The notes under the pieces are model-generated. The model saw only the letters and a list, made by a program, of their open reading frames with translations. It was not told the DNA's origin and made no database searches. The position numbers were made by a program, and so were the translations under genes. A DNA stretch of 64,000 nucleotides from Oscillospiraceae bacterium (GTDB lineage: Bacteria > Bacillota > Clostridia > Oscillospirales > CAG-272): the NCBI GenBank assembly GCA_015063625.1, contig SVTT01000001.1, positions 62,001 through 126,000 on the forward strand. The letters run 5' to 3'. Position 1 is the first letter of the stretch. Each line of letters begins with the position of its first letter. Of this stretch, positions 4,988 through 44,765 are shown in pieces.

Positions 4988-5118
4988 ATGGATAATATCT
5001 ACCAACATAACCCAGGGCGGTTCGAAGCCGATCTTTGATCCTTCGTGCTCGGCTGCAATAAGATCCCTTGTGTGTCGGTTGAATGTTTGGTCCAGAATCT
5101 TTAAAAAGGAGAAAACAG

Positions 5119-8100
5119 ATGAAAAAACACGTTCGCTTGCTTTTGCTTGTAGCAACCGTTGTGGCACTGCTGGTGCTCACCGCAGTGATGGCGTCTGCCG
5201 CGACCCCTTATCAGGTCGAGGGTGGCAGCAGCTATGCCACGCTTGCCGAGGCGGTCAGTGCGGTTCCGGCTGGCGGCACCATCACGCTGACGGCTGACGT
5301 GACCGAGAATTCGATGGTCACGCTGAATCGGGCAATAACGTATACCATTGACTTTTCCACCCACACCGTGACCTTTAGCGCGAAGCAGGGTCTTCTGGTT
5401 AGTGAGGGAACGGTCACCGTCAGGGGCGGTGTTCTGACGCAGAGCTCGTCGCTTTATACGGGCACTACGGATGCGATCATTTGTGTCGCCGCAGCGAATG
5501 ACATGACGCTGACCATTGACGGCACCACCTTCAGGGGCGGCTGCTCGCAGCTCAATCTTACCAATACGGGCAAGGCGACCGTCAATATTTATAACGCCGT
5601 CTTCGGTGACGGCACCGATCCGATCAGGCGTGCGCTGATCAACTGCAATAACGGTTCTGTCCCGAATGCCGACACGCTGAACATTCACAGCGGCACCTTC
5701 ACCAACAACGTGAATCTGGATATGGGTATGATCAACGCGGCAGGCATGAATGTCAATATCTACGGCGGTACCTTCACCTCGGTTTACGGCAAGAATATCA
5801 TCCGTCTGGCTGATGCTGACCGCGTCTCCGTGGTGAGCATCGAGGGCGGCAGCTTCACGATGCAGCAGGGGGGCATTATCATTGATTTGACCTCACCAGC
5901 ATCTAATCACGGCGAGGTGACCATCACGGGCGGAACCTTCACGGGCGGAAGCCGTCAGATCGACGTCGGCGGGCAGAACGAGCTGACGATCTCCGCAAGC
6001 ACCAAGGTGGCAGGTGAGCCCCGCTTCGGTCTTGGCACGGTTACCGATGCAGTGATCGGCACGCGCAATGCTGGAGATCAGTCCATAAACGGCGTGAGGG
6101 ATGCACTTGTTACCGTCAACGGCGGTACCTTCATTCTCAACGGCATCAGAACGACAGAGGAAACAACCGATTCCGATGGCAAAAGCGAGGATATCTTTGG
6201 CAACCAGCTCTATAAGGTCACGCTTGCAAACTATCGCATCTTCCACCTTGCGGGTGGTGATTGTGTCATCAATGGCGGCACCTTCACGCTGACCGATGAG
6301 GGCGTGGACGATACGGGTGTCAACTTCCCGGGAACCGGGAAGCCTCTGGAGCAGAGGATCTTCAACATGGATGATAACGACGTCATCTCGGATCTGACCA
6401 TCAAGGGCGGTACCTTTACCACCTCGGCACATACGGTTGCCATTGTGTATTACGCAGCCCGCCACGTCGATCGGGCGGATATCGGAAAGCTGCCCTCAAT
6501 CAGCATTTCGGGCGGCGAGTTCCACGCGCTGCTGGGCGGCAGGATCCTTGATCTCAGTGCGGGTAAATCGGGCAAGGTAACCGTTGAGGTCAGCGACGGT
6601 GTCTTTGAAGGAAAGGGCGATTGCCTGATCTGGGTGTCCTTGCCCTCTGCCACCTCCACGCTTTCGATCACGGGCGGCACCTTCACGCTGCTTGAAAACG
6701 AAAGCCTGAACGGCGGTGCCATTCTTCGTACAGGCTCCAATACCTATGTTGATTCCACCACTCCGCTGACCGATCCTACCAAGGTGCACTTTGCGTCTGC
6801 CGTCAGCATCTCGATCACGGGCGGTCTGTTTATCGACGACCGTTCCTCCAACGACCAGATCGTGGATGCCTCGGTCGGAACCTCAAACATCACGGTGGGT
6901 GCGGCAACCCTGCTTTCCCGTTATGCACAGCCTTATTTCGTCAAGGCGGCATCCGATGCACAAACCATTTCCATGACGCGTAATACCCTCAAATACTTCT
7001 ACCTTACCGAGGAGTATTACGCCTACACGGCAAGCACCGCAACCGATCCCTCCAAGGCGCCCACCATGCGCGAGGGTGCGACCATCCGCGTCGTCACCGA
7101 TGAGGAGGGCATCCGCTTTACCTCAAGTGTGCCGAATTCCTTCCTTGCCACGCTTTCGAGCTATGAGCTCCATACCATCATTGCTCCCGTCGATTTCGTC
7201 AATGCGGCAGGCGCCTTTACCAAGGCGGCACTGGAGGCATATGCACAGCGGAATTATGCCGGCGACACCTCCAGGGTCTTTGTCGATATCAAGGCAGAAA
7301 ACAGTATCGCGGTCAGCGGTGACGTCACCACCTTCAACGGCTGTATCATCAAGCTTCGCACCGTCAACTACGACCGTGATTTCGCGGCGATCTCCTACGT
7401 GCTCGATAAGGGTACGGGCAAGATCTATTACGGTGCATACGATCCCTCCCGTCAGGTTCGCTCCTTTGCCAACGTTGCTGCCGAGGCGCTTTCGGATACC
7501 AAAACGAGCGTGGAAGGGAATTATACCGTTCGCTCGGTTCTTAAGACCTCCGAATACAGCCCCTACACCTCCGCGGCACAGAATAAGATGATGACCGTTG
7601 CAGGTCTTGGCGAGGGTGATGTGATCGCTGAGAAAGCAGTCACTGTCGGCAGCTCCTGGGGCGTGGTGTATGCAAGCGGCGCTTCTGCCAACCTTGTTTC
7701 CAAGATCAATGCCATGGCAAGCAGCTACGGCATTACGACGATCAACGGCAGCACCATGACCAATGAGATCCTGATCGGCAAGACGGGCAGGACCGAAACC
7801 AATACGGCGCTTGCAAGGATCAGCGGCAACGGCTACTTTGTCGGTATCATCGGCAACAAGATCGTTGCGGTCGGCACCACCAATCTGCTGACCATGACGG
7901 CAGTCGACGTTCTGATGCGGAATTACAGTGCGGGCTCCCTGCAGGAGGCGCTTGTCTGTGATCTTCCTCTTCTTACACTGAATGCCGATACCTCCTTCAT
8001 GTTCTCCCGTTACCGCGACGGTAATCTCGAGCTCGGCTATGAGTGGGGCTACAATCATGATCACTACTTCTCAACCAGCAACATCAATACCGAGTATGCC

Positions 8101-9978
8101 GCAGAGCGCAACGAGGAGGCGGTGGATTATCCCGTTTATGCCGCCGCACGCCTTGCCGAAAAACTGCTTGGCGCCTCCGAGCAGAGTGGCGTTACCGCGC
8201 TCTTCAATATCGTGCCCGATGCACTGAATGCAAACGGTCTGACCATCCATGTGGGCCTGACCTCCGATGCGGCAACGGCTGCATTGCTGAAGGATTTCGG
8301 CACCGATATCAACGGCTACGGCTATACCATCCGTGACAATAAGATCGTCATTGCTTCCTATAACGATCAGTCGCTTCGCAAGGCGATCGCTCTCTTTACC
8401 GCCGACCTTGCCGACTTCAAGGAGGGGGATATTTACTGCATCCCCGAGGGCTATGAGGTCACCAAGACCGACACCTATACCTCGGATTGGGCATCCGGCT
8501 TCCCGTTGCCCTCCCTTCAGCTCTCGGGTGCGCTTGACGTGCACGCCGATACCTATCAGTATTACTATACGGGTGAGCAGGCAACGCTTTCTGCCTTCGA
8601 GGCCTATTGCAGCACGCTTGTCGGTCAGGGCTACACGGCACAGCTTGTCAACGATAACGTTGAGGGCAGCTATTTCCGCACCTACATGAGCAGCGACGGC
8701 AAGCTGTCGCTTCACGTGATGTACACGGCGTATCGCCACGCATCCACCCAGTACTTCAGCGTGACGGGCAGCACCTCCAACGTGGCACTGGACACCATGT
8801 TCTCACCCGCCATCCGTGTCATTGTGACCAAGGTCGGTGAAAACTCGATTCTCACAACGCCTCCTGCCAAGCTGCAGAGCCTGCAGACCTTTACTCCCAA
8901 TTCCAAGGTGGCAACGGCGCGCCTGACCTCGGTGCAGCTGAAGCCCGAATGCTGCGGCAACTGCTATATCTACGCGCTGGAGGACGGCTCCTTTATCGTG
9001 CTGGACGGCGGCGGAAGCAGTAGCACCTCCTCCACGAACAGCGACGCGGAGCATCTGTATAAAGTGCTTGAAAAGATGCACACGGAGATCTCAGGCTCGT
9101 CGGTTTCGAAAAGCAATCCCATCAGGATCGCGGCATGGTATATCTCGCACTCGCATAACGACCATCATGACGTGTTCTACAAGTTCTGTCAGAGCTATAC
9201 CAATAGCGCAGGGATCTTTGGCTTTGGCGCAAAGTATGCCACGATCGACTATCTGATCGCAAACTTTGCCTCGGACGATGAGGTCTATAACGTATACGAC
9301 CCCAACATTGCAAAGCTCCGCATTCCCTTTGATCTTGAAAACTCGAGCTGGCCCACGGATATGAACGGTAAGATCAAGTATCTGAAGGTTCATACGGGGC
9401 AGAAGCTCTGGTTTGCCAATGCCGAGCTTGAGGTGCTTTACACGCACGAGGACGTTTATCCCTGGAGTCTTGAGTATTACAACAATACCTCTACCGTCAT
9501 TCGCTTCAATATCTACGATACCAACGGTACGGGCACGAAGGGCGAATGCATCAACTCGGGACTGTGGCTGGGTGACCTGCAATACCGCGGAAGCCAGACC
9601 ATGCGCGCCATGTACGGTGACTACTTGAAGTCCGATATGGTTCAGATCGCTCACCACGGCGGCAACGGCAGCGAGCTTGAGCTTTATAAGCTTGTCAACG
9701 CCGAGGTGATCTGGTGGCCGCATTCCTCTGCTACCGTGAAGGCTTATGCCAAGTATCGCGATTCCTATAGCGAAAACCAAAAGGTTTCGACGGGGACCAT
9801 CGAACAGACTGATTGGAAATATCTGGTCGTGCTTGAGGGCTATGATTTCCAGATCAATCTGAGTGGAGCTCTTGATACCGACTTTGCGGGTGCCACGGAC
9901 TACTACAACGGCGAGACCATCACAGAGGGAACCTATTACTTCACGCCTTCCAGCATGGAAACCTTCAGAAGATCTTAA
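5119..9978 (+). CDS. Large exported protein: beta-helix region, two EIxIG modules and C-terminal MBL-fold hydrolase domain
   Basis: This 1619-residue secreted protein starts with a signal peptide (residues 1-26, ending ASA) and a Lys-rich n-region. Residues about 40-600 hold some 12 copies of a (V/I)xGG(T/S/E)F motif, typical of a right-handed beta-helix. About 640-800 is a domain beginning MREGATIRVV and DEEGIRFTSSV, a style seen on surface proteins of uncultured Clostridia. Two EILIG/IHVG modules (about 865-935 and 1040-1110) and a linker domain (about 1130-1230) follow. The last 350 residues are an MBL-fold domain with H1344-x-H1346-x-D1348-H1349, D1486 in LGD, and H1512-H1513-G, the ComEC-type metal-site pattern. 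The parts from about 860 onward are shared with the four lipoproteins at 35-45 kb. The ATG at 5119 follows AAAAAGGAG. No wall-anchor motif is visible, and the substrate is unknown. Confidence 0.85.
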   Translation: MKKHVRLLLLVATVVALLVLTAVMASAATPYQVEGGSSYATLAEAVSAVPAGGTITLTADVTENSMVTLNRAITYTIDFSTHTVTFSAKQGLLVSEGTVTVRGGVLTQSSSLYTGTTDAIICVAAANDMTLTIDGTTFRGGCSQLNLTNTGKATVNIYNAVFGDGTDPIRRALINCNNGSVPNADTLNIHSGTFTNNVNLDMGMINAAGMNVNIYGGTFTSVYGKNIIRLADADRVSVVSIEGGSFTMQQGGIIIDLTSPASNHGEVTITGGTFTGGSRQIDVGGQNELTISASTKVAGEPRFGLGTVTDAVIGTRNAGDQSINGVRDALVTVNGGTFILNGIRTTEETTDSDGKSEDIFGNQLYKVTLANYRIFHLAGGDCVINGGTFTLTDEGVDDTGVNFPGTGKPLEQRIFNMDDNDVISDLTIKGGTFTTSAHTVAIVYYAARHVDRADIGKLPSISISGGEFHALLGGRILDLSAGKSGKVTVEVSDGVFEGKGDCLIWVSLPSATSTLSITGGTFTLLENESLNGGAILRTGSNTYVDSTTPLTDPTKVHFASAVSISITGGLFIDDRSSNDQIVDASVGTSNITVGAATLLSRYAQPYFVKAASDAQTISMTRNTLKYFYLTEEYYAYTASTATDPSKAPTMREGATIRVVTDEEGIRFTSSVPNSFLATLSSYELHTIIAPVDFVNAAGAFTKAALEAYAQRNYAGDTSRVFVDIKAENSIAVSGDVTTFNGCIIKLRTVNYDRDFAAISYVLDKGTGKIYYGAYDPSRQVRSFANVAAEALSDTKTSVEGNYTVRSVLKTSEYSPYTSAAQNKMMTVAGLGEGDVIAEKAVTVGSSWGVVYASGASANLVSKINAMASSYGITTINGSTMTNEILIGKTGRTETNTALARISGNGYFVGIIGNKIVAVGTTNLLTMTAVDVLMRNYSAGSLQEALVCDLPLLTLNADTSFMFSRYRDGNLELGYEWGYNHDHYFSTSNINTEYAAERNEEAVDYPVYAAARLAEKLLGASEQSGVTALFNIVPDALNANGLTIHVGLTSDAATAALLKDFGTDINGYGYTIRDNKIVIASYNDQSLRKAIALFTADLADFKEGDIYCIPEGYEVTKTDTYTSDWASGFPLPSLQLSGALDVHADTYQYYYTGEQATLSAFEAYCSTLVGQGYTAQLVNDNVEGSYFRTYMSSDGKLSLHVMYTAYRHASTQYFSVTGSTSNVALDTMFSPAIRVIVTKVGENSILTTPPAKLQSLQTFTPNSKVATARLTSVQLKPECCGNCYIYALEDGSFIVLDGGGSSSTSSTNSDAEHLYKVLEKMHTEISGSSVSKSNPIRIAAWYISHSHNDHHDVFYKFCQSYTNSAGIFGFGAKYATIDYLIANFASDDEVYNVYDPNIAKLRIPFDLENSSWPTDMNGKIKYLKVHTGQKLWFANAELEVLYTHEDVYPWSLEYYNNTSTVIRFNIYDTNGTGTKGECINSGLWLGDLQYRGSQTMRAMYGDYLKSDMVQIAHHGGNGSELELYKLVNAEVIWWPHSSATVKAYAKYRDSYSENQKVSTGTIEQTDWKYLVVLEGYDFQINLSGALDTDFAGATDYYNGETITEGTYYFTPSSMETFRRS
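5500..6845 (+). repeat. Degenerate coding repeat of a beta-helix (GG-T-F motif)
   Basis: Within the large exported protein the peptide pattern (I/V)-x-GG-(T/S/E/L)-F recurs about 12 times at irregular spacing, for example IYGGTFTS, IEGGSFTM, ITGGTFTG, VNGGTFIL, INGGTFTL, IKGGTFTT, ISGGEFHA, ITGGTFTL and ITGGLFID. The matching DNA GGCGG(C/T)ACCTTCA is partly conserved, which suggests growth by internal duplication. Confidence 0.75.
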
Positions 9979-35085: not shown

Positions 35086-35114
35086 TTGAAAACGAGTCTG
35101 AGAAGTGGTATAAT
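35086..35114 (+). promoter_or_regulatory. Sigma-A promoter of the MBL-lipoprotein array
   Basis: TTGAAA at 35086-35091 and a perfect TATAAT at 35109-35114 are 17 bases apart, 64 bases before the first lipoprotein gene. It is the only strong promoter I find for the four-gene array. Confidence 0.8.
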
Positions 35115-35178
35115 TATTCCGTCTATTAGGATAGTTCTCACAGCGCAGTGTTTTAACAGAAAGGGAGCAGTCATTGTT

Positions 35179-37560
35179 ATGAAAAGAGTTATCAATCTCT
35201 TGCTTTGCGTGGTGATTTCGGCATCCATGTTGCTGATCTTCTCCTCGTGCAAGAAGGGTGAAACCAAGGTTGATCTGAAGGATTACGATATCGTTTACAG
35301 CAGCGATTTTTCCGCAGGACTTGTGACCGAGGTCAATCAGTTTGCAAAGGATCTCGGCAACTTGATCGGATATGATTTTAACCGCGTCCGCGATAAATCG
35401 AAGGAAGAGATCGTGAGTGACGATTTTGAGATCCTGATCGGTCTGACCAAGCGCGCTGAGTCAAGACAGGCGCTTGAGGAGATCGAGGGGGACGGCTATT
35501 GCATCCGTGTCCTCAACAACAAGATCGTGATCATCGGTACGACCAATCTTCTGACCAGGCAGGCGATCGATCTTTTCGTTTCCACTTACTGTGCCGAGGG
35601 GGAGGGAATGTCCTCCGAGATCCTGTTGAAGGACGATCTGCACTACAATATTGAAATGGTAGAGGTGACCAAGAGCTATAACGTGGTTTATTCCTATCGT
35701 CTGGACGATACGCCCAGCACGGCAGAGCGCTACGAGCCTGGCAACCCCAATGCTTTTGATTATCCCGTTGTTGCGGCAGAGCAGATCCGTTCGAAGCTTA
35801 CCCAAACGCTCGGGCTGACCGCGTCTACAACGGTGTTCCCGATCGGCAAGGATAAGACCTCCTTCGCAATGGCAAAGGAGATCCTTGTCGGAGAGACCAC
35901 TCGTGAGGAAAGCAAGGGCTTCCGCGCAACGCTGGAGGCAAATGAGTATGGCTTTACCATTACCTCTGAAGGCGATATTGTGATCACGGGCACGAACGAC
36001 ATGGGACTCCGTGAGGCTGTCAGTAAGTTTTCTGATGCCATTTTGGATTCCACTGCATTAACCGGTGACAAAAAGAGCGTTCGCTTCCCACTTAATTATA
36101 CTTACAAAGCCGCCTTTAACCAGAGCTGGTTTTTGGATTTTCCGAGACCGGAGGGAGAGGGCATTGAATTTGTCGGCTCGGTCGACGTTTACGATAATTC
36201 GATCGAGCTTTGCTATGACGGCAGTGGCGTCAACGAGGCGTCCTTTGCCGACTATTGCAGAGTGCTTGAAAATGCGGGCTACCGTGTGCATATGTCAAAT
36301 CGGATCGAGGACAGCATCTTCAAGACCTACATCAACGAAGCGGTGGGTGCCACGCTTCATGTTTCCTATGCTGCCTTCAAGCATGCCAATGCGCAGGGCG
36401 TCACACTCTTTTCTCCCTGCATCCGCATCGTTTCCTCCACTCTTGATTCTGTAAATGTCATTGAGGAAGAGCTGCTTAACGAGAGGCAGACCTTTGAAAA
36501 GGTGACCCAGACGCGTATCACCACCATGCAGCTGAACCGCGCCGAGGGCAACTGGGGAAACTGCTATATCATGACCCTTGAGGATGGCTCCTTCGTGATC
36601 TTTGACGGCGCCGGCTCGTATGGCAACTCGGATCACAACCGCCTTTGGAACGTGCTTTCCACGCTCTATGAGCAGGTTCACGGGTATTTGCCCTCCGCAG
36701 AGAACCCCATTGTGATCGCGGCATGGTATCTCTCACACGGACATTTCGATCATTTTTCGAATTTCTGGAAGTTCTGTGAGGTATACGGCTCTCGCATTTC
36801 GGTGGAGCGTATGCTTGCAAACTTTTCCTCGGATGAGGAAAACTATAACACTCATGATCCCAATCCTCAGATTCGTGATTCGCTCAACCGACTGAATCTC
36901 ATCGTGTCGGGCGGTGTCAAATACTATAAAGTCCATTCCGGACAGAAGTTCTATATCCGTAACGTTGAGCTGGAGGTCCTTTATACGCATGAGGATCTGT
37001 ATCCTCAGAAGCTGGAGATCTTCAACGACAGCTCTACCGTCATTCGCTTTACAGTGCATAACACCGACGGAAACGGAAACCGATCGGGTGAGTCCTGCAG
37101 CTCACTCTGGCTGGGAGACCTGCATTATCGAGGCAGCAAATGCTTGCGTGCGATGTACGGCGCTTATCTTGATTCGGATATGGTTCAGTTGGCGCACCAC
37201 GGATATAACGGCTGTGAATATGAGCTTTATCAGCTCGTTTCGCCCGAGCTTGTCTGGTGGCCCTGCGGCAGAGGCGAGTACCACAATACCCAGACGGTGG
37301 ATCCCAACTCCAGTGTCACTCAGTATGTGATCGATTATCGTGTTGCCCACGAACTTGAATCCGTGAGATACATCATTCTCGGTGATGATTACAACACGAC
37401 GCTGACCATCACACCAAACGGTCCCGATTACACGATCGATAACAGCAATGACGGATCTGGCACGGGCATCTACAACGTTGCCGAATACGATCCGACCAAC
37501 CAGAAGACATGGATCAAGCCGAGCACATTAAGTAGCAAGACCTCGTTTATCCGAAAATGA
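35179..37560 (+). CDS. Exported MBL-fold lipoprotein, paralogue 1 of 4
   Basis: This 793-residue protein begins with a lipoprotein signal ending FSSC, followed by KKGETKVDLKDYDIVYSSDF. Module A has EILIGLTKRAESRQALEEIEG and VIIGTTNLLTRQAI. Module B repeats it as EILVGETTREESKGF. A linker domain with DFPRPEGEGIEFVGSVDVYDNS and KHANAQ follows. The MBL-fold domain has NCYIMTLEDGSFVIFDG, H520-x-H522-x-D524-H525, YTHEDLYP, D647 in LGD and H673-H674-G. These are the ComEC-type ligands for two metals, so hydrolase activity outside the membrane is likely, with unknown substrate. The ATG at 35179 gives a clean signal peptide and follows AAGGGAG. Longer readings are rejected because they start upstream of the -10 box. 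Confidence 0.85.
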   Translation: MKRVINLLLCVVISASMLLIFSSCKKGETKVDLKDYDIVYSSDFSAGLVTEVNQFAKDLGNLIGYDFNRVRDKSKEEIVSDDFEILIGLTKRAESRQALEEIEGDGYCIRVLNNKIVIIGTTNLLTRQAIDLFVSTYCAEGEGMSSEILLKDDLHYNIEMVEVTKSYNVVYSYRLDDTPSTAERYEPGNPNAFDYPVVAAEQIRSKLTQTLGLTASTTVFPIGKDKTSFAMAKEILVGETTREESKGFRATLEANEYGFTITSEGDIVITGTNDMGLREAVSKFSDAILDSTALTGDKKSVRFPLNYTYKAAFNQSWFLDFPRPEGEGIEFVGSVDVYDNSIELCYDGSGVNEASFADYCRVLENAGYRVHMSNRIEDSIFKTYINEAVGATLHVSYAAFKHANAQGVTLFSPCIRIVSSTLDSVNVIEEELLNERQTFEKVTQTRITTMQLNRAEGNWGNCYIMTLEDGSFVIFDGAGSYGNSDHNRLWNVLSTLYEQVHGYLPSAENPIVIAAWYLSHGHFDHFSNFWKFCEVYGSRISVERMLANFSSDEENYNTHDPNPQIRDSLNRLNLIVSGGVKYYKVHSGQKFYIRNVELEVLYTHEDLYPQKLEIFNDSSTVIRFTVHNTDGNGNRSGESCSSLWLGDLHYRGSKCLRAMYGAYLDSDMVQLAHHGYNGCEYELYQLVSPELVWWPCGRGEYHNTQTVDPNSSVTQYVIDYRVAHELESVRYIILGDDYNTTLTITPNGPDYTIDNSNDGSGTGIYNVAEYDPTNQKTWIKPSTLSSKTSFIRK

Positions 37561-37652: not shown

Positions 37653-40013
37653 ATGAAGAAAAGGATTTTTATTCTGTTCCTTTCGGTCTGTCTTCTCGCT
37701 TCTGCTACGCTTCTTTTTGCCTCCTGCTCCAAGGCTGAGGTCGATCTGACCAATTACAGCATCGTTTACGGTGATGACGTTTCAAACACCTTCCTTGGAA
37801 GGATCAACGATTTTGTAAAGACCTTCGGGAAGGCTGTCGGAGGTTCTCCCGAAGCGGTCTTGGATAAAGAAACTCAAACCGTTAAAAACAGCAATTTTGA
37901 AATTCTGATCGGCAATACATCTCGAGAGGAAACGGCAAAGGCACTGGAGCTGATCGAGGGCGACGGCTATTGTATTGCGGTCATCGACGATAAGATCGTC
38001 ATTGTAGGTACGACCAACCTTCTGACCGGCAAGGCGCTTGATCTATTCGTTGAAACCTATCTGAACGATACCGAGGCGGATCTCAGCGTTCTTAAGATGG
38101 AGAAGGAAACGGTTGTCAGCAATATCCCCCTGTTGCAGGTCAACGCCGATTGGAGTATGATCTATTCCATCCGTCTTGACGACAGCTCCACCGATGCCAA
38201 GGGCGACCGTTTGAATCCCGAGAACCCCAACGGCTATGATTATCCTGTGCTCGTCTGCCATCAGCTCTGCGAGTATTTTTCGGATCTGACCGTTCTGAAG
38301 AAGAAGGATATCTATATGGCACCCGATTCTAAATCCTATACCAACGAGATCATTGTGGGCACTACCACGCATCGGGAGGGCATTGACTTTATGGCAACCA
38401 TGAATGTTGATGAATACGGTGTTGGGATCAAGGATGGCAAGGTGGTCGTGGCGGCGCTGAATGACAACATGCTTCGCAAAGCCGCAGCGCTTTTCAAGGA
38501 TGTGATCTACGACAGCAAGAAGGTGGATCCCGATAACGAGAACGAGTATATCATCTGCTTCCCCGATGAGTACAGCATCGTTTTGAGCGAAAAAACCGGC
38601 TGGAGAGTGGATTTCCCCAAGCCCGAGGGAGATCAGATCATCCTGACAGGCTCGGTCAACGTTCATGACGATTCTGTGGAGTATTATTATACCGGATCGG
38701 GTATTTCGAGCAGCGCTTTCGCAGCCTACTGCCAAAAGCTAGAGAGCGGAAATTACAAGCTCCACATGAGCAATACCATTGAAGAGAATGTCTTCAAGAC
38801 CTATTACAATACGTCGAAGGGCGTGATGCTTCACGTGATCTATGCGCCCTATATCCATGCCGCGGAGCAGAAGGTGGAGATGTTTGTTCCCAGCTTCCGC
38901 ATCATTTCCTCCAAGCTGAGCTCGGTCAATATGGTTCCTCAGGAGCTGCTGAACAGCAAGCAGACCTACACCAAGCGCTCCGATACGCGCATCACTGCCG
39001 TGAGATTGGATTACAATGGTGGTGAGAACTACGGAAACAGCTACGTGATGACGCTGGAGGACGGCACCTTCATCGTTTTTGACGGCGGCGGATTTGTCAG
39101 TTCGGACGCAGACAGACTCTACGCTGTTTTGTCAGATCTTTACCGTTCTATTTATGGCAGATTGCCGACCGCCTCCAATCGTATCAAGATCACTGCTTGG
39201 TATATGACGCACGGGCATGCGGATCATTACTATGCATTTTCTACCTTCTGTAATAAGTACGGAGGACTGACCGATCTTGATTACGTGATCGCCAATTTCC
39301 CCTCGGAGCAGGAGACCTACAACTCCTTTGACCCCAATAATACCGTTCGCGACGGCCTGAAGAGCATGCTTTCCAAGCTCGGTGGGCAGAAGATGTACAT
39401 TAAGGTGCATGCGGGTCAGAAATTCTTTATCCGTAATGTCGAGATGGAGGTCCTTTATACGCACGAGGAGATGTATCCTTGGAATATCGAGATCTTCAAC
39501 GATACCTCCACGGTCATCCGTATGAGCATTCGCAACACCGATGGGCAGGGAAATCTGAATTCGGATCGGGAATACAGCTTCCTTTGGCTGGGTGACCTGC
39601 AAACGCGCGGCAGTCGTACGCTCCGTGCCATGTACGGAGATTATCTGCAATCCGATATGGTGCAGGTCTCGCATCACGGCGGTAACGGCTGTGAATGGGC
39701 TCTGTATCAGCTGGTAGCCCCCGAGTACGTCTGGTGGCCTCACAGATTGTCTTACTTTAGCGAGATGGATTCGGGCAGAGAGTCCAACGTGACGTATATC
39801 AAGACCTCCTACAAGGTCATCAACGAGCTTCCTTCCGTGAAATATTTCATTCTGTCGGATAACTATAACGTCACCATGACCATCACTGCGGACGGACCCG
39901 ATATGAGGTTCGTCGGTGAAAGCTCCACGGGACTTTACAATGCCGCAGAGCAGATCGGCACGCCGTTGCTCGCTTACGGAGATGCCGTGATCGCAAAAAA
40001 CCGTTCTTACTAA
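37653..40013 (+). CDS. Exported MBL-fold lipoprotein, paralogue 2 of 4
   Basis: This 786-residue paralogue has the same order of parts: lipoprotein signal with FASC (C25), module A EILIGNTSREETAKALELIEG with IVIVGTTNLLTGKA, module B NEIIVGTTTHREG, linker domain DFPKPEGDQIILTGSVNV, then the MBL-fold domain. Metal-site residues are H520-x-H522-x-D524-H525, D648 and H674-H675-G, at almost the same positions as in paralogue 1. The His-rich motif reads THGHADH. AGAGGAG precedes the ATG. The 92-base gap to paralogue 1 has no clear terminator, so co-transcription is likely. Confidence 0.86.
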   Translation: MKKRIFILFLSVCLLASATLLFASCSKAEVDLTNYSIVYGDDVSNTFLGRINDFVKTFGKAVGGSPEAVLDKETQTVKNSNFEILIGNTSREETAKALELIEGDGYCIAVIDDKIVIVGTTNLLTGKALDLFVETYLNDTEADLSVLKMEKETVVSNIPLLQVNADWSMIYSIRLDDSSTDAKGDRLNPENPNGYDYPVLVCHQLCEYFSDLTVLKKKDIYMAPDSKSYTNEIIVGTTTHREGIDFMATMNVDEYGVGIKDGKVVVAALNDNMLRKAAALFKDVIYDSKKVDPDNENEYIICFPDEYSIVLSEKTGWRVDFPKPEGDQIILTGSVNVHDDSVEYYYTGSGISSSAFAAYCQKLESGNYKLHMSNTIEENVFKTYYNTSKGVMLHVIYAPYIHAAEQKVEMFVPSFRIISSKLSSVNMVPQELLNSKQTYTKRSDTRITAVRLDYNGGENYGNSYVMTLEDGTFIVFDGGGFVSSDADRLYAVLSDLYRSIYGRLPTASNRIKITAWYMTHGHADHYYAFSTFCNKYGGLTDLDYVIANFPSEQETYNSFDPNNTVRDGLKSMLSKLGGQKMYIKVHAGQKFFIRNVEMEVLYTHEEMYPWNIEIFNDTSTVIRMSIRNTDGQGNLNSDREYSFLWLGDLQTRGSRTLRAMYGDYLQSDMVQVSHHGGNGCEWALYQLVAPEYVWWPHRLSYFSEMDSGRESNVTYIKTSYKVINELPSVKYFILSDNYNVTMTITADGPDMRFVGESSTGLYNAAEQIGTPLLAYGDAVIAKNRSY

Positions 40014-40043: not shown

Positions 40044-42401
40044 GTGAAAAAAACAATCAGTCTGTTGCTGATTCTTTGTCTTCTGGGAGCATCAATGCTG
40101 ATGTTCTCCTCTTGCGGAAAGACAAAGGTCGATCTTGAGCAGTACAGCGTGATCTATGATTCCGATATTTCCGACACGATGGAGGCAAGCATCAAAAGCT
40201 TTGGTCGGAATTTCGGAGATTGGCTCGGCAACTCGGTAAGTGCCAAAAAGGATGACAAAAAGGACGGTGTGGATACCGCCGACTATGAGATCCTGATCGG
40301 TAACACCTCGCGCGTCGAAAGCGCAGAGGCGCTTTCCATGATCGAGGGTCATGGATATGCCATCGTGGTCAGCGACTATAAGATCGCGATCGTCGGTACG
40401 ACCAATCTGTTCACCAAGATGGCATTGGATGAGTTTGCCAAGCTGTGCTTCGAGGGTGGCATCGAAAACGTCAACGAGTTCCAGATGCAAAAGGAAACCG
40501 TTGTCAGCAACGCGGAAGTTACCAAGCTTGACGCTGATTTTAACATGATCTTCTCTGTGCGTATGGATTATGATAATACCGATAACACCCGTGTAGAGAA
40601 TGAGTCCGATAACCCCGAGGGATATGACTATCCCGTCAATGCTGCCGAGCAGATCCGTGAGTACATTGCAGCGAATTCCGTGCTGAAGAAGAATGATCTT
40701 CGCATGTCGGCAGACAGCAAGTCCTATGAGAAGGAGATCATCGTCGGTGTCACTGACCGCACAGAGGGAAAGAGCTTCCTTTCTACGTTGGATTCGACGG
40801 GCTACGGTATCTCGGTCAACGGAAACAAGATCGTTGTGGGCGCTTTGAACGTGACCACCCTGAAAAAGGCAGTCGCGATCTTCTTTGACGCAATTTTGGA
40901 TTCCAAGACCGCTTCCGGAGAGGAAGGGAAGTACGATATCGTTTTCCCTGCGCAGTATTCCTTCGTCGAGAAGGATACAAAGTCTTCTTGGGTTGCGGAT
41001 TTCCCGAGACCCACCGGCGACGGACTGGCGCTGACCGGTACTACGGACGTGGGCGAGGGCTCCTATTCCTACTCCTATACGGGCGAAGGCGCAACTGCCA
41101 ACGCATGTCTCGCCTATTTCACGGCGCTGGAGAATGCAGGCTATACACTGTATGACAGCAACACCATCGGTAACAATCTTTTCCGTACCTACAATCATGC
41201 CGCAAACGGGATCTCGCTCTACGTGACCTATGCCGAGTATACCTATGATGAGTCACAGAAGGTCAATATGTATGAGCCCACCATCCGCATCGTAGCGGCG
41301 AAGAAGGAAAATGCTCATCTGATTCCCGAAAAGCTTCTTTCTGCTTCTCAGAGCTACACCAAGGTGACCGATACCCGCATTACGGCAATGCGTCTTGACT
41401 ATAACGGCAACGCCACCTCGGTTTACGGTAACTGCTACATCGTCACGCTCGAGGACGGCTCCTTTATCGTGTATGACGGCGGTATGACCGACGCCGATGA
41501 CGAGGCAAGACTTTATAACGTCCTGGCCGATCTGCACAAGACGGTCAACGGAAAGAACAGCATCAGCAGACAGGATCCCATCCGCATCGCGGCATGGTAT
41601 CTCTCGCACGGCCACGGTGACCACTACGGCAACTTCCTGGCTTTTGCCAAGACCTACGGTCAGTATTGCTCGGTGGAATATCTGCTCGGCAACTTCACCT
41701 CGAATGACGAGACCTATAATACCCATAACCCCAACAACTACGTTCGTGACCGCCTCTCGACCATTGCGGGCTATTTCAATAAGCCCTTCACCTATGTCCG
41801 TATCCATTCGGGTCAGCAGTTCTATCTGCGCAACGTTGGTATCGAGGTGCTTTATACGCATGAGGATCTCGGTCCTTGGCCGCTTGGCGTCTTTAATAAC
41901 TCCTCTACTGTGATCCGTCTTTCGCTCCGCAGCACCGACGGGCAGGGCAATCTCAACAATACCGATCCCACGACCTTTACTTGGCTCGGTGACCTGCAGG
42001 ATCGCGGCAGTAAGACGCTTCGTGCCATGTACGGCAATTATATGCAGTCCGATATGGTACAGGTCGCTCACCACGGTTGGGATGGCTGCGAGTGGGCACT
42101 TTATCAGCTGATCGCACCCGAGTGCGTTTGGTGGCCCACTTCCATGGCAAACTTCAACTCCTTCTCTTATGCTGCCAATTCGAGCAACGCCTATGCGCGC
42201 GTTGACTACAAGGTGATCAACGAGCTTTCGAGCGTGAATTATCATATTATTTCCGACTTTTACAATGTCACGATGACCATTAAACCCGACGGACGCCCCG
42301 ATTATAGTATTGGCGGTACCACCGGCCTTTACAGTGCGGGCGAAACGGTTCAAAACACGTTGGCCGCGTACGGAACAGCTGTTCGCAAGATCATTCGCTG
42401 A
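40044..42401 (+). CDS. Exported MBL-fold lipoprotein, paralogue 3 of 4
   Basis: This 785-residue paralogue starts with GTG at 40044 after AAAGGAGG, 30 bases past paralogue 2. The lipobox is FSSC (C24). Module A has EILIGNTSRVESAEALSMIEG with IAIVGTTNLFTKMA, and module B has KEIIVGVTDRTEG. The linker domain shows DFPRPTGDGLALTGTTDVG with YSYTGEGA. The MBL-fold ligands are H522-x-H524-x-D526-H527, D650 and H676-H677-G. It is the closest in tone to paralogue 2. A hairpin terminator follows at 42428. Confidence 0.86.
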   Translation: MKKTISLLLILCLLGASMLMFSSCGKTKVDLEQYSVIYDSDISDTMEASIKSFGRNFGDWLGNSVSAKKDDKKDGVDTADYEILIGNTSRVESAEALSMIEGHGYAIVVSDYKIAIVGTTNLFTKMALDEFAKLCFEGGIENVNEFQMQKETVVSNAEVTKLDADFNMIFSVRMDYDNTDNTRVENESDNPEGYDYPVNAAEQIREYIAANSVLKKNDLRMSADSKSYEKEIIVGVTDRTEGKSFLSTLDSTGYGISVNGNKIVVGALNVTTLKKAVAIFFDAILDSKTASGEEGKYDIVFPAQYSFVEKDTKSSWVADFPRPTGDGLALTGTTDVGEGSYSYSYTGEGATANACLAYFTALENAGYTLYDSNTIGNNLFRTYNHAANGISLYVTYAEYTYDESQKVNMYEPTIRIVAAKKENAHLIPEKLLSASQSYTKVTDTRITAMRLDYNGNATSVYGNCYIVTLEDGSFIVYDGGMTDADDEARLYNVLADLHKTVNGKNSISRQDPIRIAAWYLSHGHGDHYGNFLAFAKTYGQYCSVEYLLGNFTSNDETYNTHNPNNYVRDRLSTIAGYFNKPFTYVRIHSGQQFYLRNVGIEVLYTHEDLGPWPLGVFNNSSTVIRLSLRSTDGQGNLNNTDPTTFTWLGDLQDRGSKTLRAMYGNYMQSDMVQVAHHGWDGCEWALYQLIAPECVWWPTSMANFNSFSYAANSSNAYARVDYKVINELSSVNYHIISDFYNVTMTIKPDGRPDYSIGGTTGLYSAGETVQNTLAAYGTAVRKIIR

Positions 42402-42427
42402 TCCCAAAAATCTCACATAATTGAAAT

Positions 42428-42454
42428 GCCCAAACACTTGTTTGGGCATTTTTT
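42428..42454 (+). terminator. Terminator between MBL paralogues 3 and 4
   Basis: The perfect 8-bp stem GCCCAAAC/GTTTGGGC with a 4-base loop is followed by A and six Ts. It sits 26 bases after paralogue 3 and just before the start of paralogue 4, so paralogue 4 may be expressed at a lower level or by read-through. Confidence 0.82.
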
Positions 42455-42467
42455 GAAAGGGTTTACT

Positions 42468-44765
42468 TTGAAACGAGTAATCATTTGCTTATCCGCAATT
42501 CTCCTGCTGTGTTCGGCGTGCCTCGGGTTCTCATCCTGCTCCTCCGACAAGGTGGATCTGGCGGATTATAAGATCGTTTATGACAGAAATCTGAAAGGGA
42601 TCTTTCTTGACGAGGTGGAGGAGCTTGCGCTTCTTTTGAATGCGCGTGCCGGTGCCGAGCTCTCTTTTGTTTCTGATAAATCCGATTTTACAAGCCGTGA
42701 GATCCTGATCGGAAACACCGACCGCGAGGAGACCGCCAAGGTGCTTGCGAGCATCGAAGGGGAGGGCTACGCCATCCGGATGGTGGGCAAGCACATTGTG
42801 ATCGTCGGTACCGACCGACTGATGACCCTGAAGGCAATGCAGGTGTTTTCCGAGGCTTATCTGACGGGGGAGGGCAAGCTCGAGATCGGCGAAGGGGTAA
42901 TCTGCTCCAACGCAGAGCAGTTGGTGCTTGATAGCAGCTTTGCCGTTGTTTACGATCACAGGCTGGATGACGAAAAGGGAAGCAGCTTCGGCTCCGATTA
43001 TCGTACCGAAACCGAAAACCCGGATGCGTATGACTATCCCGTTGTTGCCGCCCATCAGATCCTTGATGCCTTAGAGTCAAGGGCGTCGCTGATCTGCACG
43101 CTTGATACCGATCAGTTCGATCTTCGTAACAAGGAGATCCTTGTGGGCATTGTGGACAGATCGCTTTGTCAGAGCACGCTGAGTGGGTTGAACGTCAATG
43201 ATTACGGTGTCGTGGTGTCGGGGAATAAGGTCTTGGTCGCGGCTGCCAACGACCCCGGACTGCGTATGGCGATCACGCTTTTTAAAAATATTCTCACCGA
43301 GGCGATGGACGAGGACGGCGTTTGCCGTTTGCCGCAGGATTTTTCCATCTTCCGTATGAGAGATTCCTCTCTTTTATCGGACTTTCCGAAGCCTACGGGT
43401 GAAAATATTGATTTCTGCGGCTCGGTCAACGTGGCAGACGGCTCGGTAGAATTGGTCTATCGCGGAAATGGTGTCAATGCCGACAGCTTTGAAGCATACT
43501 GCCACGGCCTGCTTGATGCGGGATGTGAGCTTTTGCTTGAAAATTCGATCGAGGGAAGCCGATTCAAAACGCTTGTCAACCGTGAAAAAGGATATTCTTT
43601 GCACGTCATGTATGCGGCGTATAAGCACGCGGCTGCGCAGGCGGTGAGTGGTCTTTCTCCCACGCTGCGCGTCGTTTGCTCCTCCTTAAAGAAGGTCGCG
43701 GTGCCTGATGGGGCATTGCTTGACAGTCGGCAGACCTATGAAAAGGTAACCGATACGATGGTGACGGCTGTGAAGCTGGATTACAACTACGATGGCGGTA
43801 ACTACGGTAACAGCTTTGTGATCACGCTGGAGGACGGCTCCTTCATCGTATGCGACGGCGGAGGCTTCTCTGACAATGACGGCGAGGAGCTTTTTAAGGT
43901 CCTGAAGAATCTGTTCTATCGCATTTACGGCGTCCTTCCTACAGCAAGCAATCCCATTCGCATTGCCGCGTGGTATATGTCGCACGGTCACGCCGATCAT
44001 TTTGATGCATTTTCTTATTTTTGCAGCACCTACGGCTATCTGGTGGAAATGGATTATATTATCGCCAACTTCCCCTCGGATGACGAAACCTACAATTGCT
44101 ATAACCCCAACAACTATGTGCGTGATAATTTTTCGGGAATGACCTCGGGATTCCTGAAGCGCCCCGTGTATATCAAGGTGCATACGGGTCAGCGCCTTTT
44201 TGTGCGAAACGTCGAGCTGGAGGTGCTTTATACACACGAGGATCTTTATCCCAATATTCTTGATTATTTTAACGACACCTCCACGGTGATCCGTATGCAT
44301 ATTCGCAATACGAACGGGCAGGGAGAGCTTCGCGGCGAGGAAACCACCGTGCTCTGGCTCGGTGATCTTTATTTGCAGGGAAGTCGGTATCTGCGCGCGA
44401 TGTACGGCAATGCACTGCAAACGGATATCGTGCAGCTCGCGCACCACGGATCAATGGGCTGTGAGTATGAGATGTATCAGCTGGTGGCACCCGAATGCGT
44501 GCTCTGGACGGCAAGCGCGAGCAACTACTATCGACAAACGCGCTATCAAAATTCCTCCAACTGGGTCACACGCGCCAACTATGGGCTTGCGCATCTTGCT
44601 TCGGTGCGCTTTATCATCGTGTGCGACGTATATGACACCACCTTTACCGTGACCGAGCAGGGACCTGTTTATGAGGTGGACGGCGAGAACTGTATGTTTG
44701 ACGCCTCGTTGGTTTCAACCCCCCGCGTTTACTATGGAGATGCGATCATCAAGAAGAATCAATAG
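42468..44765 (+). CDS. Exported MBL-fold lipoprotein, paralogue 4 of 4
   Basis: This 765-residue protein is read from a TTG at 42468, which gives a normal signal peptide (LKRVIICLSAILLLCSACLG) ending FSSC. An ATG at 42426 is in frame but lies across the terminator and would add a charged stretch. Module A is EILIGNTDREETAKVLASIEG with IVIVGTDRLMTLKA, and module B is KEILVGIVDRSLCQ. The linker domain DFPKPTGENIDFCGSVNVADGS carries an extra Cys. MBL ligands are H506-x-H508-x-D510-H511, D633 and H659-H660-G. It is the most diverged of the four, and no separate promoter is seen. Confidence 0.83.
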   Translation: MKRVIICLSAILLLCSACLGFSSCSSDKVDLADYKIVYDRNLKGIFLDEVEELALLLNARAGAELSFVSDKSDFTSREILIGNTDREETAKVLASIEGEGYAIRMVGKHIVIVGTDRLMTLKAMQVFSEAYLTGEGKLEIGEGVICSNAEQLVLDSSFAVVYDHRLDDEKGSSFGSDYRTETENPDAYDYPVVAAHQILDALESRASLICTLDTDQFDLRNKEILVGIVDRSLCQSTLSGLNVNDYGVVVSGNKVLVAAANDPGLRMAITLFKNILTEAMDEDGVCRLPQDFSIFRMRDSSLLSDFPKPTGENIDFCGSVNVADGSVELVYRGNGVNADSFEAYCHGLLDAGCELLLENSIEGSRFKTLVNREKGYSLHVMYAAYKHAAAQAVSGLSPTLRVVCSSLKKVAVPDGALLDSRQTYEKVTDTMVTAVKLDYNYDGGNYGNSFVITLEDGSFIVCDGGGFSDNDGEELFKVLKNLFYRIYGVLPTASNPIRIAAWYMSHGHADHFDAFSYFCSTYGYLVEMDYIIANFPSDDETYNCYNPNNYVRDNFSGMTSGFLKRPVYIKVHTGQRLFVRNVELEVLYTHEDLYPNILDYFNDTSTVIRMHIRNTNGQGELRGEETTVLWLGDLYLQGSRYLRAMYGNALQTDIVQLAHHGSMGCEYEMYQLVAPECVLWTASASNYYRQTRYQNSSNWVTRANYGLAHLASVRFIIVCDVYDTTFTVTEQGPVYEVDGENCMFDASLVSTPRVYYGDAIIKKNQ

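Follow-up and report, generated by a model that had tools for sequence, protein, structure and literature searches.

A protein of 1619 residues encoded at 5119..9978 (+) in the 64,000-nucleotide stretch of DNA analysed here (the window) carries the same C-terminal cassette as four tandem lipoproteins encoded further along that stretch. We regard it as probable, at roughly 60%, that the large protein and the lipoproteins are extracellular metal-dependent phosphodiesterases, either nuclease-like or acting as esterases on a phospho-polymer, from the MBL enzyme group that includes ComEC and Pce. This reading is based on the observations that ComEC and Pce are the closest enzymes by both structure and profile, that the metal ligands are kept, and that the ComEC domain is a proven phosphodiesterase, and also on the finding that the pair of modules lying ahead of the MBL domain precedes alkaline phosphatase, EEP and GDPD domains as well. 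The MBL domain would cut phosphodiesters outside the cell, and both GH20b-like modules, together with the linker, would serve as a fixed scaffold or substrate-presenting unit common to other secreted phosphoesterases. The cassette would come in two forms: a membrane-bound one, as lipoproteins encoded in tandem, and one that is released or wall-associated on a stalk made of a beta-helix and an IRFTSSV domain. Export by way of the signal peptide, and positioning of the substrate by the modules and the stalk, would complete this scheme.

Both the enzyme group and the small domains belong to known kinds. Neither Pfam nor NCBIfam has a name for the arrangement, for the module pair as found on several phosphoesterase folds, or for the IRFTSSV domain. 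In the literature, judged on titles and the beginnings of abstracts, we recognised no description of a stalk-module-MBL architecture. An abundant, unannotated surface-protein family of gut Clostridia gains a testable enzyme class, a domain known from glycosidases is found to serve phosphoesterases too, and one recurrent domain is newly defined; similar stalk-enzyme fusions have been built several times in related gut bacteria.

The large protein shares its C-terminal cassette with a lipoprotein array

The reading frame is open from 5119 to 9978, and a second in-frame ATG is present at 5083. Its product is predicted to be a secreted form of the cassette, joined to a beta-helix and an IRFTSSV domain. 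A putative Sec-type signal peptide (residues 1-28, 5119..5202), recognised by sequence reading, is followed by a repeat region (residues ~30-600, 5206..6918) and by the IRFTSSV domain (6934..7719, with a core from about residue 664), which was placed by alignment of its members. The cassette consists of module A, or the EILIG module (residues 838-940, 7630..7938); module B, a second copy of the same domain (residues 997-1102, 8107..8424); a linker domain with the motifs YYYTG...YRHAS (residues ~1137-1238, 8527..8832); and the MBL domain (residues 1263-1597, 8905..9909). All of these features lie on the + strand. The modules were assigned by sequence match and model, the linker by sequence match and the cassette model, and the MBL domain by alignment, model, and structure and profile matches.

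The four lipoproteins are encoded at 35086..37560, 37653..40013, 40044..42401 and 42426..44765, all on the + strand, and were delineated by alignment and regular expression. BLASTP of the large protein against them gave one long match each, with 35.4-36.5% identity and E-values of 4.6e-135, 2.1e-126, 1.2e-115 and 9.0e-115. The matched span is continuous and runs, depending on the lipoprotein, from residue 839-883 to residue 1540-1601 of the large protein, which bears out the proposal of a preliminary description that the five proteins have a C-terminal cassette in common. Similarity limited to generic MBL motifs was ruled out: residues 831-1290, from which the MBL domain is cut off, still matched the four lipoproteins at E-values of 4.6e-39 to 1.0e-57, and the single units did so individually as well (8e-13 to 8e-20 for module A, 1e-10 to 2e-14 for module B and 1e-11 to 8e-21 for the linker). 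A profile of the lipoproteins scored residues 831-1290 at 222 bits and reported 0/1000 shuffles of that stretch. Modules A and B are themselves related, as module A matched the second copy in the third and fourth lipoproteins (E 9e-7 and 3e-6), and a module profile built from relatives found two modules in each of the four lipoproteins and in the large protein.

Residues 1-830 gave nothing significant against the four lipoproteins (best E 0.097), and the N-terminal part is therefore unshared. The lipoproteins thus correspond to an isolated cassette, to which the large protein adds ~830 residues. A lipobox-like motif was detected by regular expression near the N terminus in 4/4 array members, including the first, a cassette alone with lipobox, and was absent from the large protein. 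This agrees with the suggestion that one cassette occurs either by itself with a lipid anchor or as part of a secreted fusion. The array and the large gene are 25.1 kb apart on the same strand, close to the 25 kb first estimated. The array lies downstream of a mraW-ftsI-murE-murF-mraY-ftsW-murG-ftsZ cluster (window 20259-44765), in which ftsZ is followed by two other genes and then by the array, and the same order is seen in G005 and G012.

The repeat region of the large protein is a probable right-handed beta-helix, as judged by regular expression and a low-confidence model. Eleven GG-x-F-type rungs were counted in residues 189-571, in keeping with an earlier count of about 12 GG-T-F repeats. 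The model of the N-terminal half was poor (mean pLDDT 51.3) because its alignment had only three usable rows, and its Foldseek matches to right-handed beta-helix folds were weak, the best being to PL6 lyase (E 9.9e-4), pertactin and tailspikes. The carbohydrate binding that had been ascribed to this helix is not shown by such matches.

The modules resemble a glycosidase domain and accompany several phosphoesterase folds

An AlphaFold2 model of the cassette, made from 45 rows, had a mean pLDDT of 81.3 and a pTM of 0.84. Outside the MBL domain, Foldseek matched this model to CpGH84A (6pv4, E 8.7e-4), the lacto-N-biosidase LNBase (4h04), and GH67 and GH138 enzymes (1mqp, 6hzg), with E-values from 8.7e-4 to 0.1. 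The matched part, over ~120-140 columns, is what we take to be the small alpha/beta N-terminal domain of GH84/GH20/GH67/GH138 enzymes. Modules A and B probably resemble this GH20b-like domain, with which the strand and helix order of the model agrees. Relatives of the modules gave weak Pfam matches to PF02838 (Glyco_hydro_20b), PF12971 (NAGLU_N) and PF03648 (Glyco_hydro_67N), all below the curated cut-off. Unlike the domain of the glycosidases, the one seen here stands as a tandem pair ahead of an MBL domain, without a glycosidase barrel.

A profile of the module pair matched in 84/118 genomes of the family. Partners of the module were surveyed in 40 stretches chosen by hand from the module-pair listing (L104-L143), which contain 57 proteins with the module. 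As identified by clustering and by Pfam scans of representatives, the C-terminal partners include MBL, EEP, alkaline phosphatase, GDPD, BNR-repeat, GxGYxYP, GH26 and GH76/88 domains, with amylase-like, DUF4838, DUF6528, DUF4350 and GDSL domains as further examples. Since EILIG modules are common on glycosidase-like and other domains, they are not by themselves a marker of phosphoesterases. At least two modules were present in 18/22 phosphoesterases versus 5/33 other proteins among 55 hand-picked family proteins (Fisher p 1e-6, which is only a guide because the rows are related rather than independent and some class labels come from clustering alone). This sample comprised proteins with a C-terminal part of at least 120 aa, left out three added rows, and derived from a search whose query had two modules.

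The window's own genome provides two such cases on other contigs. The module pair is found on an alkaline phosphatase (L042:9083-10867, contig C6; PF00245, 3.5e-30) and on an EEP domain (L043:7421-9643, contig C16; PF03372, 0.0084, below the cut-off). The alkaline phosphatase gene is flanked by V-type ATPase genes, which give no clear functional hint. Elsewhere, tandem arrays of ~570-aa proteins that combine one EILIG-type module with a BNR-repeat domain were observed in L118 (G125:C57:18000-37000), with nine copies in 19 kb, and in L131.

The MBL domain groups with ComEC and Pce

In the Foldseek search, the MBL part of the cassette model matched the Moorella glycerini ComEC domain (9ic4, E 4.6e-10); the second match of the model was arylsulfatase 8gyg. 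In VIA-align comparisons, ComEC 9ic4 reached a Z of 24.6 over 255 residues and Pce (2bib/1wra) a Z of 23.5 over ~270, with RNase J2 next at 17.8. A 32-row MBL profile searched against PDB sequences also placed ComEC (2.1e-10) and Pce (1.8e-7) on top, followed by RNase J (2.3e-4); a whole-cassette profile found nothing among PDB sequences at E 1, and it was the MBL-only profile that gave the matches. Pfam PF00753 scored above its cut-off in 2/4 lipoproteins and not in the large protein. The model and the alignment together contain every element of an MBL fold with H-x-H-x-D-H, a bridging Asp and a distal His. The residues H1344-S-H-N-D-H, D1486 and H1512-H-G had been located correctly in the preliminary description, and across 116 MBL rows D1296, H1344 and D1348 are conserved in 116, H1346, H1349, H1512 and H1513 in 115, and D1486 in 114.

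ComEC is nearest both by profile (2e-10 to 5e-9) and by structure, is likewise extracellular, and has in common with the cassette the position of the bridging Asp and the HHG motif. Its MBL domain is a proven Mn-dependent phosphodiesterase/nuclease, according to the portion of the published account consulted (PMC8579336), and the same portion describes a motif His that ComEC replaces and Pce keeps. Motif II is H-x-H-x-D-H here, with H1346 in 115/116 rows, whereas 9ic4 has H-x-D-x-D-H (H-P-D-A-D-H). The proteins studied here also differ from ComEC in having no competence channel domain (PF03772) and in a predicted export by signal peptide or as a lipoprotein. ComEC is a separate gene in the window's genome, and PF03772 is present in 20/21 genomes of the genus. 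Pce/CbpE, the pneumococcal teichoic acid phosphorylcholine esterase, is similar in structure and profile at 12% identity, and the portion of PMC4929436 consulted presents it as a secreted MBL esterase borne on a long repeat module. The order of parts is different: in Pce the enzyme is followed by choline-binding repeats, whereas in the large protein the MBL domain comes last, after the stalk, an unnamed domain, the pair of GH20b-like modules and the linker.

Relatives of the MBL domain of ~400 aa, one or two at a time and without modules or an evident signal peptide, adjoin a RadA-like gene (a label from sequence reading) within a few kb of comEC in four genomes of the genus, G005, G016, G014 and G012 (L218:2527-5054, L219:6897-9642, L220:1952-4397 and L221:2386-3585). 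In the window's genome, such short relatives are absent beside comEC. Their presence next to comEC elsewhere is a weak hint toward nucleic acids as the substrate.

MBL folds are catalytically diverse, and the domain might instead hydrolyse non-phosphate bonds, such as a lactone, ester, sulfate or amide bond in a compound from the diet or the host, in which case the link to phosphoesterases would be coincidental. The arylsulfatase found second by Foldseek fits this possibility, as does the presence of EILIG modules on glycosidases and a GDSL esterase, but in both the structure and the profile comparison ComEC and Pce outscore every other MBL by a clear margin, and in the hand-picked sample it is mainly phosphoesterases that carry the module pair. 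We therefore consider hydrolysis of non-phosphate bonds rather unlikely.

An improbable alternative is that the proteins trim phosphocholine or glycerophosphate from the cell's own teichoic acids in the manner of Pce, hence the place of the array beside the division and wall cluster. Its location downstream of mraW-ftsZ is in line with this, and Pce, one of the two most similar solved structures, is also an MBL enzyme on an elongated repeat module in the portion of PMC4929436 consulted. However, the teichoic-acid polymerase family PF04464 was found in 0/21 genomes of the genus, although the control was positive in B. subtilis and L. lactis, and LicD in 3/21, being absent from the window's genome. 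These counts make Pce-like action on own polymerised teichoic acid or phosphocholine unlikely, and own teichoic acid was rejected on them as the main substrate. Moreover, a Pfam scan of the large protein at E 0.1 found no family and hence no choline-binding repeat family. Decay of the enzyme into a protein serving only as an adhesin or surface decoy is very unlikely, because it would not leave ligands kept in 114-116/116 rows, even though the stalk is similar to beta-helices of the adhesin type and the copy number is high (2 to 6 in 13 arrays, counted by hand).

The IRFTSSV domain is repeatedly joined to phosphoesterases

Pfam and NCBIfam scans of 11 IRFTSSV members returned nothing credible, only isolated weak matches. 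The domain is present in 20/21 genomes of the genus and 17/118 of the family, in many cases behind beta-repeats and within very large frames; open frames with it reach 5221 aa in the genus (e.g. G008:C57:38401-39009). Outside the genus, nine IRFTSSV proteins from eight stretches were examined, three of which are fused to a phosphoesterase, the others having none that was detected. The fusion in G100 combines a beta-repeat, IRFTSSV, one module and EEP (PF03372, 4.4e-11); that in G112 a beta-repeat, IRFTSSV, one module, the linker and MBL; and that in G082 GLUG repeats and MBL, with IRFTSSV at the C terminus. In both L029 and G048, a single stretch encodes IRFTSSV proteins and module-pair MBL lipoproteins in distinct genes. 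IRFTSSV has been joined to MBL or EEP on at least three further occasions in the family, and the finding that the IRFTSSV half and the enzyme half are repeatedly joined or neighbouring argues for a shared task. In L209:1208-6379 (G078), IRFTSSV precedes a region that looks by eye like a heparinase or alginate lyase. Neither the cassette nor IRFTSSV had a relative on viral contigs.

We tentatively raise the possibility that IRFTSSV and one or two GH20b-like modules form a hitherto undescribed extracellular delivery platform, which gut Clostridia would have loaded repeatedly with unrelated phosphoesterase folds (MBL, EEP, alkaline phosphatase and GDPD) and which would attack a phosphorylated polymer other than own teichoic acid.

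The beta-helix fusion arose once in the genus

The cassette profile matched in 21/21 genomes of the genus, and its activity is therefore likely to be important for the lineage. Tandem arrays of 2 to 6 copies are found in 13 of these genomes by hand count. A tree built from 80 cassettes groups into one clade (SH-aLRT 100) all 15 beta-helix/IRFTSSV fusions found with a complete cassette, which come from 9/21 genomes, and the IRFTSSV domain is present in 15/15 of them. A tenth genome, G009, has a fusion copy (L160) that is cut by the contig start; a tree of 116 MBL domains places it within this clade, and one of the three fusion label changes in that tree is an artefact arising from L160. The window protein and the contig C9 fusion of the same genome entered the trees as partial copies (L005 and L006).

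The gene in the window is flanked by genes for PFK, a GerA-type protein, a permease and uracil-DNA glycosylase. This setting is kept in G005, G012, G015, G017 and G002, and in part in G004 and G009, and extra copies lie around the GerA-type gene in G005 and G015. In the stretches compared, none of these neighbours was seen for the second fusion of the window's genome (L041, contig C9) or for the G014 copy. The second fusion (L041:4496-10628) adjoins a gene of the choloylglycine-hydrolase family (PF02275, 3.9e-80), and its neighbours (choloylglycine hydrolase, RtcB and a TIM-barrel protein) offer no clear functional hint. One clade with conserved neighbours indicates a single origin followed by inheritance, as opposed to a roaming cassette: the beta-helix fusion arose once in the genus and has passed on by mostly vertical inheritance with local duplication.

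The idea that the cassette is a mobile building block is accordingly upheld in part. The fusion itself is one clade with conserved neighbours, but smaller parts recombine across the family, where the units exchanged appear from their domain combinations to be the GH20b-like module, alone or as a pair, together with the IRFTSSV and MBL domains, each smaller than the cassette and each found with other partners. The MBL domains of G112 and G082 lie far from the window's clade in the tree of 116, both on long branches; G082 was entered as a fragment (L176) and its separate place was read by eye. The cassette also has separate fusions to cysteine-rich repeats in G006 and to an Fn3-looking repeat in G019, the repeat labels being assigned by eye. 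In G006 (L156:5178-9254 and L148), the MBL cassette is accompanied by cysteine-rich HSYG...C..C repeats, and L156 ends, by eye, in a probable transmembrane anchor.
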